A stretch of 64,000 nucleotides of DNA from Porphyridium purpureum (Eukaryota; Rhodophyta; Bangiophyceae; Porphyridiales; Porphyridiaceae): the NCBI GenBank assembly GCA_008690995.1, contig VRMN01000001.1, positions 3,224,001 to 3,288,000 on the forward strand. Reading direction: 5' to 3'. Positions within the stretch are counted from its first letter, which is position 1; each line of letters begins with the position of its first letter. Shown piece by piece: positions 16,695 through 49,473 of this stretch. The notes beneath the pieces were generated by a model. The model saw only the letters and a program-made list of their open reading frames with translations, was not told the DNA's origin and did no database searches. A program made the translations under genes and the position numbers.

Positions 16695-17585
16695 CTAAGA
16701 CACGGCCGCAACACGCTCGGACGGCTTTGAAGAGGTCGACAAGGAAGTTGCAGGAGAGGTTGCCGGCGAAGCGTTGGGACGCTTGTGGCGCGGCACGTAC
16801 CGGCGGTCCTGGTACTCGTCGAGCCACGTTTTCTTCACAAGATCTGGTGTATAATTGCACTTCAAGTACGCGTGCACATGCAATCGGTTCCTGGGTTGGG
16901 CGTGGGGCTCCACGGGCTCGGCAGAAACCGGGCTTTCAGCGCCGTCATCCACATCCACAGGGATTACCTTGCGCGTGTAGTTCACGCCAATGTTCTCGAG
17001 CTCGTCCAGCTTGGCGAGCTCTCCGTCGTCCACAATATACACTTCGCCTTTAACTTTCTGGCCTTTTCCCTGCATGTTCAGCAGGTACGGCGAAAACCAA
17101 GGCCCGCCAACAACAAGAGGGTACTGCTGCACCGTCCGGAACTCGCCCACAAACATGGCATTGCTAAGCAGGTGCGAGTTTGGAAACGAACGCTTCAGCG
17201 TTCCATAGACAAACACCAGGTGCCACGATCCGCTCGCCTGGTTCAGGCAACGAACGAGTTCATTCATCAATTCAGAGGTGCCGTCCGCGTGCAAGATGCC
17301 GGTAGCCATTGTTGACGGATGAGCAACCTTCGCCACGCCGACCGCAGCGCTTGCAACGGAGTGACCATTGACGTCCGCCGGTTTCTTCTTCGTGTCCGTA
17401 TGCATCTGGGCCGCGCACGATAGCGACACCGAGCCGAGCGGACGCTGGTGGAGATGCGCACCCACGTACTGCCCCGTGGCAGACGTGCGACCTCCCGCTC
17501 CGCACGGAGCCGAGCGCGGGCTCGCTCTTCCGGTCGAGGCGAGGACCGCGCCGACGTGTACTACCGGTGCCGCTCCAGAAATCAT
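16695..17585 (-). CDS. Gamma-glutamylamine cyclotransferase-like (AIG2/GGCT fold) protein
   Basis: The 296-residue protein has a long N-terminal extension (about 115 residues, rich in Ser, Arg, Ala and Gly), then the GGCT fold: HLVFVYGTLKRSFPNSHLL (about residues 120-138), VGGPWFSPYLL and KVKGEVYIVDDGELAKLDELENIGVNYTR. YGTLK is the glycine-loop signature and the Glu in LDELE matches the position of the catalytic acid in the GGACT/AIG2 family. Members release 5-oxoproline from gamma-glutamyl compounds. The C-terminus adds a low-complexity Ser/Pro tail. The frame begins at a GTG (17666); I chose the ATG at 17585. The extension could be a plastid transit peptide. Confidence 0.75.
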   Translation of the reverse strand: MISGAAPVVHVGAVLASTGRASPRSAPCGAGGRTSATGQYVGAHLHQRPLGSVSLSCAAQMHTDTKKKPADVNGHSVASAAVGVAKVAHPSTMATGILHADGTSELMNELVRCLNQASGSWHLVFVYGTLKRSFPNSHLLSNAMFVGEFRTVQQYPLVVGGPWFSPYLLNMQGKGQKVKGEVYIVDDGELAKLDELENIGVNYTRKVIPVDVDDGAESPVSAEPVEPHAQPRNRLHVHAYLKCNYTPDLVKKTWLDEYQDRRYVPRHKRPNASPATSPATSLSTSSKPSERVAAVS

Positions 17586-18200
17586 TCTTTGGCACGAAAA
17601 ACCCTGAACCCGATTCTCAAGCAGGAAACTAAAAGCCCAACGCACACCACGTGCGATACTCAACACCGTCTCAAGAAAGCGTGCGAGCCGTGATCTTTCC
17701 GCGTTTCCGGAATGAGTCGTTCCTCTTGATAAGCATCTAATACTTCAGCAACCTATTGCGCGTTGCTGCTCATCCCACGCCGGACCGTGTGCGCCTCTCT
17801 CCACTTCACCTAACCCGCGCTGTCCGATATCTAGACCATCCAGACGAATCGTCGTCCTTACTCCCACCCGCCTGTTCCCCTGTTTGTAGTACGCTCCGCT
17901 ACTTAACCCACCGAGCCTTTTAATAGCTGTTGCGGCTGCCGCTGCCACCCGTCTGCTTTTTCTATCAAAACAGCCCTGCGCAATCACAAACACGCACGCT
18001 CACCACCAGACGCTCGCGCGCTCTTCCCGCCCAGCCTTTTCTTGTTAATTCAGGAAAACGAGGTGTACACTAAGACTTGATGGGGGTACAGCCGTTAATA
18101 CAAAAAACCCGCCGAGTGATTCACCACGTCAGCGCGTATTCCCTCGAACGCACTGTACCGTGTCGCTCCTCCCACACGTCGCAGATTCTACTCAACATAC
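17586..18200. other. Intergenic region upstream of the permuted tRNA
   Basis: About 600 bases with no supported open frame. A CACTGTACCG word is at 18151-18160. A U5-loop-like string near 17914 was considered and rejected. Confidence 0.4.
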
Positions 18201-18203
18201 AAC

Positions 18204-18211
18204 TATATAAA
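18204..18211 (+). promoter_or_regulatory. TATA element of the permuted tRNA gene
   Basis: TATATAAA lies about 40 bases before the first tRNA segment at 18250, a spacing suited to a Pol III TATA-box. It is the best TATA match in this intergenic region. Confidence 0.5.
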
Positions 18212-18249
18212 CGCTATTTTTTCCCTTCCACAAACAAATTTCACGGAGG

Positions 18250-18355
18250 AACGGTCGGCCGCAGTTCGATCCTTGCAGAAGGGGAGTTTCTGCGTATGGG
18301 CATAGAATCGTTTGATTACGCCCGTATGGCTTAGTGGTAGAGTTACCGTTTCGTA
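18250..18355 (+). tRNA. Permuted tRNA-Thr(CGU) with an extra insert in the T-loop
   Basis: The 3' half of the tRNA lies before the 5' half. The 3' half (18250-18302) has position 38, anticodon-stem strand ACGGT, variable loop CGGC, T-stem CGCAG, T-loop TTCGATC, an 18-base insert (18272-18289), T-stem CTGCG, acceptor strand TATGGGC and discriminator A. A 17-base spacer (18303-18319) follows. The 5' half (18320-18355) has acceptor strand GCCCGTA, TG, D-arm GCTTAGTGGTAGAGT, T, anticodon-stem strand ACCGT and loop TTCGTA with anticodon CGT. Seven acceptor pairs form (one G-U), five anticodon pairs and five T-stem pairs once the insert is removed. The mature tRNA would be 71 nt. CGT reads ACG, threonine; GC at the 5' end and TATGGC fit tRNA-Thr. 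The insert boundary may shift by a few bases. A T5 run follows at 18367-18371. Confidence 0.88.
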
Positions 18356-18366
18356 CCTGAGAACTC

Positions 18367-18371
18367 TTTTT
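18367..18371 (+). terminator. Pol III oligo-T terminator of the permuted tRNA
   Basis: Five T residues follow 11 bases after the end of the 5' half, as expected for Pol III termination. Confidence 0.6.
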
Positions 18372-19851
18372 GCCGGTTGGAAAACATCACTGATCATGTC
18401 TCAATAATTCGCGAGACGATCTCCAACATGGCTCCGTAGCGACAAGCAAAATTGCATGCAGCGCAACTCGCTCCGTACAATGTGCTACGTTTCGCGGGCC
18501 GCGGCCTAACACTACAAAACTCAGTTTGTCTCTCACAGTCTGCGCGCGGGCGCTGCGATGCGACTGCAGATATGGTCTGCGACCGCGCACTGGGGGCGAA
18601 TTCAGCTAGGCCACGCGAGCTCAGCGCATATTCAAAATTTCGGTCCCCCCCAAGGCCAAGCTGTCACATGTCTTCAGGCCCATTCAGAATTGATTCTTGG
18701 TAGGGCCTGCTTGTGCAGTGTTTACTAGGTGGGCGTTGCGCATTTTGGACCAGCGGCATAAACAGGCGCAACCCGCGCGCACTGTCGAAAGAAAGAAAGA
18801 TGATGCTCGGAAGCCTTGTGTTCCTCGTGGCCAACCGCGGTCCGCGCTGTTAAATGAATGTTTCTTGCTCTCGTCTGCAAGGACCCTAGATCCTTGAAGC
18901 CTCGTCATGACCCCGCTGGCTGTTGCTGAGAAGAGCATACACACAGAATGCGAAAGCAAGGAATACTGAGCATCTGCTTGTCGTGTGTGCTCATTCCGCT
19001 ACCAAAGCAGTGGATGGCGATAAATGCTTTTGGACACACTGCAGCACGCCTGTTCGGAAGAGTAAGAGCCATGAGGGTGCGAAATGGACACAAAAAGTCG
19101 ACCATGGCATCGAGGAACCTTTCAGAAACCCCAAGCATGTTCGTTTACCTCCCGATTTGCCCCACTACTGACAGTCGGCATTAGTGTCCTGCCCCGCTGA
19201 TCTACCGAATTTGCATCTGCGCCGCCCATTCCATAGCGCGCGTGTCCTGACAGAGTCTGCGCATCTCGCCCAACTCTCTCTCGGCAGCCGCACAGCACGC
19301 GCCACAAGCCCGGCTTGGCCACTCGCACAGCGACTCCTGCTTGTTGCCATACCCGTCGCGCGCGATGAAGCGCGTCGTGCTTGTTCTTCCAGCTGACATC
19401 CGGATACGCTAGAAGCCTGTCGATGTTCGCATACGCCTTATACTGGTCCATACGCATGGCGCTCTGATTCCGTGAAGCTCCATGCCACGCACGCGGCGGT
19501 CACACCGACTCCATAAGTACACCGACCGGCACTGAACACCCATCTAGTAAACCACGAGCGTTTCACGAGACAAACACGGTGCGATTTAGCGTGCTGCTTC
19601 GTTTTGGTGCCGCGTCTGGCTCGAGACGCCGAACGTGCGACGCGTCGGTTTGCCAGCGGCTGCAAGCGGTGATGGCAGACGGAGACGCACATGTAAAAAG
19701 CGCATTCGCAGCTGCTTAAAGCAGCCATGGACGCAGCGTCTGCAGCCGCGCGTGGCAGTTCGGCTCTCCAAGTACATCGGCACGCGGTGAGAGCGACGCG
19801 CAGAAAGACCGGACAAGCGGCACAAATCCTGCAGCGGCACAGGCGGCAAGC
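18372..19851. other. Intergenic region without a supported gene
   Basis: About 1.5 kb. Only short frames on both strands without recognisable motifs; no further tRNA arms were found. Confidence 0.45.
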
Positions 19852-46924: not shown

Positions 46925-49333
46925 TCAGAAATCAATTGAGTCCAAGTCGAGGGATGCAGCGTGAGATTCGATGAATTCGCGTCGCGGCGCGACTTCGTCA
47001 CCCATTAGCAGCCTGAACAGCGCATCGGCGGCCGCTGCGTCGTCGACGGTGACTTGCTTCATGCGGCGGGAATCCGGGTTCATGGTGGTATCCCAGAGCT
47101 GCTGTGGCATCATCTCACCAAGTCCCTTGAAGCGCTGCACCGTCACGGTGGCTGGGTTAGCCTGCTTGTCTAGGTACGCTCGCAGCTCCGCCTCGTCAAA
47201 CAGAAAAGTTCCGCCGCCGGACTTACTGCCGCTCTTGCGCGTCACCTTGTACAGAGGTGGGCAGGCGATGTAAATGAAACCGTTTTCCAGAAGGGCGCGC
47301 TGGTAGCGGAAGAAAAACGTAAGGAGTAAAGTGCGAATGTGAGCACCGTCCACGTCTGCATCGCTCAAAATTACAATGCGATGGTAGCGCAGTTGGCTGA
47401 CGTCAAACGCTTCACCTCGAATGCCTAGACCAAGCGCAGAAATGAGCGCCTGAATCTCCGTGTTCCGGTAGATCCGGCCGTCTTCGGCCTTTTCAATGTT
47501 CAAAATTTTGCCTCGAAGTGGCAAAATGGCCTGGAAGAAGCGGTCCCGACCTTGTTTGGCGCTTCCACCCGCGCTGTCGCCTTCAACAATAAAAATTTCG
47601 GCTTCGGCCGGCTCGCGCGAAGAGCAATCTGCAAGTTTGCCCGGTAATGTGGACGATTCAAGCACGGTCTTCCGGCGCACCAGCTCTCGCGCATTGCGAG
47701 CGGCCTGCGCGGCGTCGAAGGCGTTCATGGCCTTTTCGTATACCTTGAAGAGCACCTGAGGCGACAACTCTACAAAATCCGCAAAACAGGTGCTCGTCAC
47801 CTTTTCTACAATCGAGCGCACCTCTGGATTGCCCAATTTGGTTTTCGTTTGCCCTTCAAATTCTGGGTCGGGCACCTTCACCGAAACCACCGCGGTCAAC
47901 CCTTCGCGGATGAATTCCCCACTCAGATTTGCCTGCTTTTCCTTGAGCTTGCCTAGCTTGCGAGCCATCGAGTTGAATGTGCGTGTTAAAGAAGTCTTGA
48001 ATCCGTCAATGTGAGTTCCTCCATCCACGGTCCGGATGTTGTTCGCAAAGCCAAGTACCAAGTCCGTGTAAGAATCTGCGCTCCATTGCAGCGTCATTTC
48101 AACCTGCACGTCATTCACTGTCTCGTTCATGTAGATCACTTCTTCGTGCAGTGCAGTCTTATTGCGGCACAAGTACGCACTGTATTCGCGAATCCCGCCT
48201 TCATACATGAAGATTTCTGTACGGGGCAGCTTTCCAGCCACCCCTGAGTCTGCGCGATTGGGGCGCGACTGCTCGGCAGGAGTTTCGTCATCGCCCTCAA
48301 GCGGTTCAGAGGCATTCGCGTTTGATATGTTTCCAGGCTTACGTTCATCTTTCAGCGTAATGCTGAGGCCGCCATTCAAGAATGCGAGCTGCCGGAGTCG
48401 CTCAGCGAGCATGTCAAAGTCGAATTCAGTGACTGACGTAAAAATCTTTGGGTCTGGTAAAAAGGTGACTTGAGTCCCGCAGCGCATAGGCGCATCGGAC
48501 TGAAAGTTCGACCCAGAGCCCGAGTCGAGGTCTGCTGGCAAGGCGGTCACCACGAGTTGCGATGTCGGCTTCCCGTAGGCAAACTCCATGGAGTACTCCA
48601 TGTTTTGCCGCCACACCGACACCTTCACGTAAGAGCTGAGTGCGTTGACCACACTGATGCCTACGCCATGTAATCCACCCGAGACCTTGTACCCTCCTTG
48701 CCCAAATTTTCCTCCCGCGTGCAGCACAGTCATAACTGTCTCGAGTGCCGACTTGCCCGTGCGTTGGTGCACATCAACGGGAATCCCGCGCCCATTGTCA
48801 CGTACCGTCACCGCACCATTTTCGCACAAAATCACAGAAACTTCGGTACAAAAGCCGGCTAGCGCTTCGTCCACCGCATTGTCCACTACCTCGTACACCA
48901 TGTGATGCAGGCCGCGCGATCCGGTGCTTCCGATGTACATGCCCGGTCGCTTTCGGACAGGCTCCAAACCTTCCAAGACCGTGATCATTTCCGCGCCGTA
49001 ACTCACATCCACTTTTGCTGCATTCGAATTCTTTGGCATTGCGCTGCCGTTCTGCTTCGTGGTACGGGCGTCGCCAGCCGCCATTCGCGGAATTGCGGCA
49101 GCCGGTGCGTCTGGCACTGGCTCAGCGGCAGTTTGCATGACCGTTGAACGTCTGACACGGCTACATGAAACGCCGCACTGCAAGAAAGACAAGGCTGTAT
49201 GTGTGCGGCCATCCACGCGGCGATTGGTGCGAAACAAGCGTTTCGGCGCGCTCATGTGGCGCGCCATTTCTCGCAGGGACTCGCTTCTCTCCACTCCATT
49301 ACCGCGGCACCCAGCACCCACTCCAACAAACAT
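46925..49333 (-). CDS. gyrB: DNA gyrase subunit B, plastid-targeted
   Basis: The 802-residue protein is complete GyrB with an N-terminal extension of about 110 residues rich in Arg, Ser, Ala and Gly, suited as a plastid transit peptide. The GHKL ATPase has LEPVRKRPGMYIGSTGSRGLHHMVYEVVDNAVDEAL and GGLHGVGISVVNALS. The Toprim part has EIFIVEGDSAGGSAKQGRDR (about residues 577-596), ILNIEKA and SDADVDGAHIRTLLLTFFFRY. The C-terminus has QRFKGLGEMMPQQLWDTTMNP. It lacks the extra 165-residue insert of proteobacterial GyrB. GyrB with GyrA introduces supercoils into organelle DNA. ATG choice: 49333 is the first ATG in frame; 49264 and 49252 are alternatives. Confidence 0.95.
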   Translation of the reverse strand: MFVGVGAGCRGNGVERSESLREMARHMSAPKRLFRTNRRVDGRTHTALSFLQCGVSCSRVRRSTVMQTAAEPVPDAPAAAIPRMAAGDARTTKQNGSAMPKNSNAAKVDVSYGAEMITVLEGLEPVRKRPGMYIGSTGSRGLHHMVYEVVDNAVDEALAGFCTEVSVILCENGAVTVRDNGRGIPVDVHQRTGKSALETVMTVLHAGGKFGQGGYKVSGGLHGVGISVVNALSSYVKVSVWRQNMEYSMEFAYGKPTSQLVVTALPADLDSGSGSNFQSDAPMRCGTQVTFLPDPKIFTSVTEFDFDMLAERLRQLAFLNGGLSITLKDERKPGNISNANASEPLEGDDETPAEQSRPNRADSGVAGKLPRTEIFMYEGGIREYSAYLCRNKTALHEEVIYMNETVNDVQVEMTLQWSADSYTDLVLGFANNIRTVDGGTHIDGFKTSLTRTFNSMARKLGKLKEKQANLSGEFIREGLTAVVSVKVPDPEFEGQTKTKLGNPEVRSIVEKVTSTCFADFVELSPQVLFKVYEKAMNAFDAAQAARNARELVRRKTVLESSTLPGKLADCSSREPAEAEIFIVEGDSAGGSAKQGRDRFFQAILPLRGKILNIEKAEDGRIYRNTEIQALISALGLGIRGEAFDVSQLRYHRIVILSDADVDGAHIRTLLLTFFFRYQRALLENGFIYIACPPLYKVTRKSGSKSGGGTFLFDEAELRAYLDKQANPATVTVQRFKGLGEMMPQQLWDTTMNPDSRRMKQVTVDDAAAADALFRLLMGDEVAPRREFIESHAASLDLDSIDF

Positions 49334-49473
49334 GCTGCCGCGACACGACGCGCTCCTGCTGCGCTTTTTTCCCTTGGACCCACCAACCCAATCACAACCA
49401 GCCCAACTCTGCTGACGACACCACGCGACTCGTCCTTTCACGCCCACGCGCGCCGCCCTTTTTGCACCGGCAT

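Follow-up and report, generated by a model that had tools for sequence, protein, structure and literature searches.

Positions 18250-18355 of the DNA analysed here very probably represent a nuclear gene of the red alga Porphyridium purpureum encoding tRNA-Thr(CGU), which, as judged from its sequence, is circularly permuted at 37/38 (type II) and further interrupted by a short intron in the T-loop. The window, that is the whole stretch of DNA that was analysed, comprises 64,000 nucleotides (G000:C43:3224001-3288000) from a genome of 22.16 Mb in 46 contigs. Permuted tRNA genes demonstrate that the parts of a functional RNA may be encoded in scrambled order and put right via a circle. Such genes were known earlier from a red alga of hot springs that is only distantly related, and their presence in Porphyridium suggests that the habit of permutation may have a greater age and a wider spread than had been assumed.

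Organization of the tRNA-Thr(CGU) gene

Direct reading of the forward strand places the 5' half of this tRNA after its 3' half, with a linker of 17 nt between them. The 3' half, A-ACGGT-CGGC-CGCAG-TTCGAT..insert..CTGCG-TATGGGC-A (18250-18302), is composed of a first exon (18250-18270, tRNA positions 38-59), a putative intron of 18 nt, best placed at 59/60 (18271-18288), and a second exon (18289-18302, tRNA positions 60-73). The intervening sequence, lying between A73 and G1, occupies 18303-18319 and is followed by the 5' half, GCCCGTA-TG-GCTTAGTGGTAGAGT-T-ACCGT-TTCGTA (18320-18355, tRNA positions 1-37), with the anticodon CGT at 18352-18354. All seven acceptor pairs, all five pairs of the anticodon stem and all five pairs of the T-stem are formed, and the consensus bases U8, A14, G15-C48, G18G19, U33, U54U55C56 and A58 are intact. 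The first-pass annotation had described swapped halves, full pairing in these three stems and an insert in the T-arm. The swap is borne out by the sequence, by a covariance model of permuted tRNAs, by the junction geometry and by five sister genes; the pairing stands at 7/7, 5/5 and 5/5, and removal of the insert restores a 5/5 T-stem together with a T-loop of 7 nt.

The unit is flanked by an upstream TATA-like box and a downstream T stretch, both of which had been pointed out earlier and were found again. The TATATAAA box at 18204-18211 (+), located 46 nt upstream of the first coding base, is likely a Pol III promoter element, and the TTTTT run at 18367-18371 (+), which lies 11 nt past the 5' half, is likely a Pol III terminator. 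A TATA-like octamer matching at 7 or more of 8 positions was present within 80 nt upstream in 19 of 22 tRNA genes of this genome, which is a raw count taken without a shuffled control. For a protein encoded beside the locus, the best named relatives belong to red algae (Galdieria, Rhodosorus and Purpureofilum), and weak matches to insects rank last.

Putative splicing motifs at the 37/38 junction and in the T-loop

The ends of the precursor can form a bulge-helix-bulge, in which the anticodon stem (helix h) is paired at 5/5 and the central helix (H) at 4/4 positions, with a poor outer helix (h'). The central helix is formed between TTCG of the anticodon loop (18350-18353) and CGGA of the leader (18244-18247), and the two bulges, TA/C (18354-18356) and GG/A (18248-18250), are each exactly 3 nt long, which places the predicted cuts at 18355/18356 on the 5' side and at 18249/18250 on the 3' side of the 37/38 junction. 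As a control, the TTCG/CGGA pairing had a mean of 1.79/4 across 24 shifted registers. It had been claimed earlier that AGG before the gene and CCT after it could pair at the junction; these complementary bases are indeed present (18247-18249 and 18356-18358), but they fall outside the register yielding two 3-nt bulges, and hence this helix was rejected in favour of TTCG/CGGA. The same register test was applied to 12 junctions and T-loop introns entered by hand, whose central helices were paired at 37 of 48 positions versus 21.0 expected from 24 shifted registers in each case. This count includes the intron of L022, with 0/4, and omits the introns of L005, L010, L043 and L064 as well as those that L021 and L022 have at the anticodon; the L005 intron, tested apart, gave 3/4 in the central helix.

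For the T-loop intron, the borders that best fit the splicing motif are 18271-18288, since with these borders the T-stem serves as a 5/5 outer stem, the bulges AT/C and TT/T are 3 nt each and the central helix is paired at 3/4 positions. Placement at 18270-18287 leads to the same product. This strict motif is not the minimum free energy (MFE) fold, having -4.0 kcal/mol versus -11.7 for the same 35 nt. The earlier borders, 18272-18289, are not favoured by the motif, which yields T60 rather than C60 in the product, as the register test of 18272-18289 gives 2/5 in the outer stem and 1/4 in the central helix. That the same gene instead yields a T-loop of TTCGATC, with C60, through excision of 18272-18289, 18273-18290 or 18274-18291, is possible but rather unlikely. 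Such a product is allowed by the sequence, TTCGATC occurs in a tRNA-Phe of the same genome (L002), both the T60 and the C60 forms are taken by ARAGORN, and the central helix reaches 3/4 with 18274-18291 (2/4 with 18273-18290). Against it, each of the three C60 alternatives has only 2/5 in the outer stem as compared to 5/5 with 18271-18288, and five other T-loop introns of this genome were hand-placed at 59/60 with a T-stem of 5/5.

Recognition by tRNA search programs and covariance models

With the Thr(CGU) locus in its genomic order, no tRNA was called by ARAGORN and nothing was matched by Rfam at the gathering score. After rejoining of the halves and removal of the insert, ARAGORN reported a tRNA-Thr(cgt) with a cloverleaf, and with the insert retained in the rejoined form it reported no tRNA. 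ARAGORN is lenient, as three out of 20 mismatched half pairs were also called tRNA, and the case was therefore rested on the covariance model, the splicing motif and the sister genes.

The covariance model R1 was built from nine tRNAs of the same genome permuted in silico at 37/38, and the native permuted Thr genes were left out of its training. It matches the Thr(CGU) locus over its full length at 33.4 bits (E=1e-7 in a search of 70,117 bases), and no other R1 match with E<=10 lies in the window. A permutation-aware search of the kind that had been suggested earlier supports the gene. Scaled to the genome, the E-value would be about 3e-5, bearing in mind that E-values of such models are rough. 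The background of R1 consists of half-matches to normal tRNAs, reaching 29.1 bits for L001, which belongs to the training set, and 17.8 bits for L059, which does not. An analogous model permuted at 59/60, R2, is a poor discriminator because positions 1-59 are kept as one piece, and normal-order tRNAs scored 57.9 bits (L014, in training) and 41.4 bits (L059, outside it). In RNAfold predictions, the T-stem was absent from the MFE structure of the whole Thr(CGU) precursor, and the MFE structure of the joined mature tRNA, taken as unmodified, was not a cloverleaf.

Other permuted and intron-containing tRNA genes of P. purpureum

A genome-wide Rfam tRNA search, with 63 of 475 candidates scored, gave at least 17 matches at E<=10, at least 12 of them over the cut-off. 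In six motif searches, the numbers of matches with the pattern versus its backward control were 9/15, 5/11, 14/19, 18/25, 4/1 and 16/6, and since the backward control beat the pattern in four of the six, most motif matches are due to chance. The tRNA genes were chosen by model score and by eye; the census of 22 hand-read genes is a lower bound.

Six of these 22 genes are permuted, Thr(CGU) included. Permutation at 37/38 is found in Thr(CGU), Thr(UGU), Glu(UUC), Leu(AAG) and Leu(CAG) and at 59/60 in Lys(UUU), and ARAGORN called tRNA for all six when rejoined and for none in genomic order. The gene for Thr(UGU) (L016, G000:C14:661337, + strand) has a linker of 22 nt, a 4/4 central helix and an R1 score of 53.8 bits. 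The gene for Glu(UUC) (L031, G000:C2:2099509, + strand; R1 42.3 bits) exhibits the same double disruption as Thr(CGU), being both permuted and interrupted in the T-loop, here by an intron of 23 nt. The gene for Lys(UUU) (L013, G000:C2:2091229-2091293, - strand), with a 27-nt linker, initially showed up as a fragment in the Rfam search; it scores 66.5 bits with R2, and because of the weak discrimination by this model its assignment rests also on the 5/5 T-stem, the 4/4 central helix and the rejoined form. The R1 scores of Leu(AAG) (L068, G000:C11:1462518, + strand, with an 8-bp outer helix; 28.5 bits) and Leu(CAG) (L069, G000:C45:208983, + strand; 27.9 bits) are below the half-match of L001, and their support comes from the complete pairing (12 of 12) of the acceptor and anticodon stems in each of them. 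The inner parts of these two Leu genes are nearly identical, which suggests that they are perhaps duplicates that arose after permutation.

T-loop introns are also present in the normal-order genes L011, L014, L021 and L022; these introns and that of Glu(UUC) were hand-placed at 59/60, the one in L022 poorly. By hand reading, more than one apparent intron was observed in each of the normal-order genes for Pro(CGG) (L022, G000:C11:536892, + strand), Pro(UGG) (L021, G000:C11:132446, - strand) and Val(CAC) (L064, G000:C43:1558148, + strand). An apparent intron of 20 nt lies in the D-stem of tRNA-Ala(UGC) (L010, G000:C2:1701113, + strand).

A reading of the Thr(CGU) locus as a pseudogene, namely a tRNA-Thr gene that was once normal and fell out of use when a local rearrangement and an insertion disrupted it, is improbable. 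The roughly 18 extra nt in the T-loop would be expected to abolish function if they stayed in place, and the motif around this intron is imperfect. Decay is opposed by the intact stems and consensus bases of the anticodon loop and the T-loop, by the 4/4 junction helix, by the presence of TATA and T5 and by the five further permuted genes, one of which has the same double disruption. Even less credible, and next to dismissed, is an origin from two adjacent tRNA gene remnants or from a trans-spliced pair, with which the order of the halves by itself would be compatible: the T5 run is located past the 5' half with no TTTT within the unit, the halves match at 12 of 12 acceptor and anticodon positions, a full score that none of the 20 mismatched pairings among the five type II genes reached, and ARAGORN, allowing introns of up to 1000 nt, found no tRNA in 17500-19500. 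A conventional tRNA with long introns at this locus was rejected on the basis of the same ARAGORN result with introns of up to 1000 nt. A single permuted gene with a T-loop intron is thus the preferred reading.

The first-pass annotation had also raised the question of a conventional tRNA-Thr(CGU) elsewhere in the genome. No second Thr(CGU) gene was found among the other 21 hand-read tRNA genes of this incomplete census, and the joined Thr(CGU), used as the query of a DNA search, matched only the 5' half of the gene itself. Several loci lack a full assignment (L012, L015/L027, L017, L018/L071 and L070), and for this reason a disrupted second Thr(CGU) gene may exist. In seven ORFs of the window with Pfam support, ACG is used more often than any other Thr codon, accounting for 85 of 209. 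Another ORF in the window, at 46925-49447 on the - strand, contains DNA gyrase B domains and perhaps encodes, judging by these domains, an organelle-targeted gyrase specified by the nuclear genome.

Proposed processing of the precursor

In the proposed pathway, transcription, the circular intermediate and the order of steps are inferred from Cyanidioschyzon merolae, whereas anatomy, pairing, motif geometry, sister genes and the presence of Sen2, Sen34 and a Sen54 domain were established directly in P. purpureum. Pol III would start below the upstream TATA box and stop at the T5 run, and folding of the transcript would bring the 5' leader and the 3' trailer alongside the anticodon stem. Excision of the T-loop intron and cleavage of both ends at the 37/38 bulges are predicted for the Sen endonuclease, after which a ligase would link position 37 to 38 to generate a circular RNA. 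By analogy, RNase P and tRNase Z would then take out the 17-nt linker and thereby open the circle, and CCA addition would result in a mature tRNA for ACG codons.

Concerning the machinery, the tRNA_int_endo domain gave two matches in the genome, which correspond to PDB chains named Sen2 and Sen34, and the Sen2 ORF shows 100% identity, across 98% of the query, with a protein that bears the name Porphyridium purpureum Sen2. The N-terminal domain of Sen54 was found as well (PF12928, 45.2 bits). The TFIIIC B-block domain PF04182 had no match in the genome, which is a weak negative given that its control was positive in 8 of 14 prokaryote genomes and that introns can hide genes.

Relation to known permuted tRNA genes

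By 2014, 34 permuted tRNA genes were known, seven of them with an intron, and their intervening sequences ranged from 1 to 74 bp, within which the 17-nt linker of Thr(CGU) falls (entries of PMC3978253). It had been hinted earlier that permutation combined with a split T-loop might be undescribed in kind, and this does not hold, since the tRNA-Gly(CCC) gene of C. merolae combines a type II junction at 37/38 with a T-loop intron of 13 nt at 55/56, which is removed first (PMC3978253). The Porphyridium gene differs from this precedent, going by that entry, in its isoacceptor and species and in having an intron of about 18 nt best placed at 59/60, as compared to the 'no h' motif of Gly(CCC). The permuted Thr(CGT) of C. 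merolae shares the anticodon and the 37/38 junction with the P. purpureum gene but, comparing table entries, has an intervening sequence of 31 bp and is intronless, in contrast to 17 nt and a T-loop intron (PMC3978253). A T-arm intron is also reported in C. merolae Ile(UAU), at 53/54 (PMC9602550).

The 3' half likewise comes first in the prasinophytes Ostreococcus and Micromonas and in the Bigelowiella nucleomorph, where the tabulated green junctions are mostly 37/38 and an additional intron is tabulated only for O. lucimarinus Ser(TGA), at 27/28 (PMC3978253). The green alga Auxenochlorella is described as having permuted tRNAs with the 3' half before the 5' half as well (PMC12633428); these genes, unlike those of P. 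purpureum, all belong to the green lineage. The permuted tRNAs of the archaeon Thermofilum pendens also combine permutation and intron, with the junction at 59/60 and the intron at 37/38, which is the reverse of P. purpureum Thr(CGU), according to the entries of PMC3978253.

Among the matches listed by a search of the open-access literature, with subscription papers outside its scope, there was no title on nuclear tRNAs of Porphyridium, and 'permuted tRNA' and 'Porphyridium' occurred together in a single open-access paper, in which Porphyridium serves as an outgroup and 'permuted tRNA' belongs to a reference-list entry. As far as open papers go, permuted tRNA genes in Porphyridium are new, and the double disruption itself is known in kind.

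Three permuted genes have the same anticodon and junction in P. purpureum and in the C. merolae list, namely Thr(CGU) and Leu(CAG), both at 37/38, and Lys(UUU), at 59/60 (PMC3978253). A tentative joint explanation, on balance somewhat doubtful, is that these three were inherited from a common ancestor near the red-algal root and kept in both lines, with later introns, including the T-loop intron of Thr(CGU), added on top. By a rough calculation on an incomplete census, the overlap of three of six permuted anticodons with the listed C. merolae set has P=0.13 for anticodon alone, and the product with junction type is 0.007, falling to 0.004 when both Leu genes are taken as a single one; a three-way match by chance is moderately unlikely. 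On the opposite side, P. purpureum has normal-order genes for Gln(CTG) (L004) and Ala(TGC) (L010), which are permuted in C. merolae, and the C. merolae list contains none of the Thr(UGU), Glu(UUC) and Leu(AAG) species that P. purpureum has in permuted form. Comparison was made by anticodon and junction and is compatible with one as well as with repeated origin. According to the 2014 review, the permuted amino-acid/anticodon species are not conserved between organisms (PMC3978253). If shared ancestry is true, permutation is an inherited trait and no quirk of the hot-acid Cyanidiophyceae or of single lineages. With six permuted genes in Porphyridium, three of them matching C. merolae, the age and retention of permutation become testable.

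A tRNAscan-SE survey including P. purpureum reported 22-26 tRNA genes in unicellular red algae except Galdieria sulphuraria, and permutation is unmentioned in the available part of this survey (PMC10496412). Because searches for ordinary tRNAs miss permuted genes, such genes may, in our view, explain part of these low counts. The same source reports tRNA-Sec in unicellular red algae (PMC10496412), which is consistent with a locus of P. purpureum (L007, G000:C43:2065560, + strand) that ARAGORN called tRNA-Sec(TCA).
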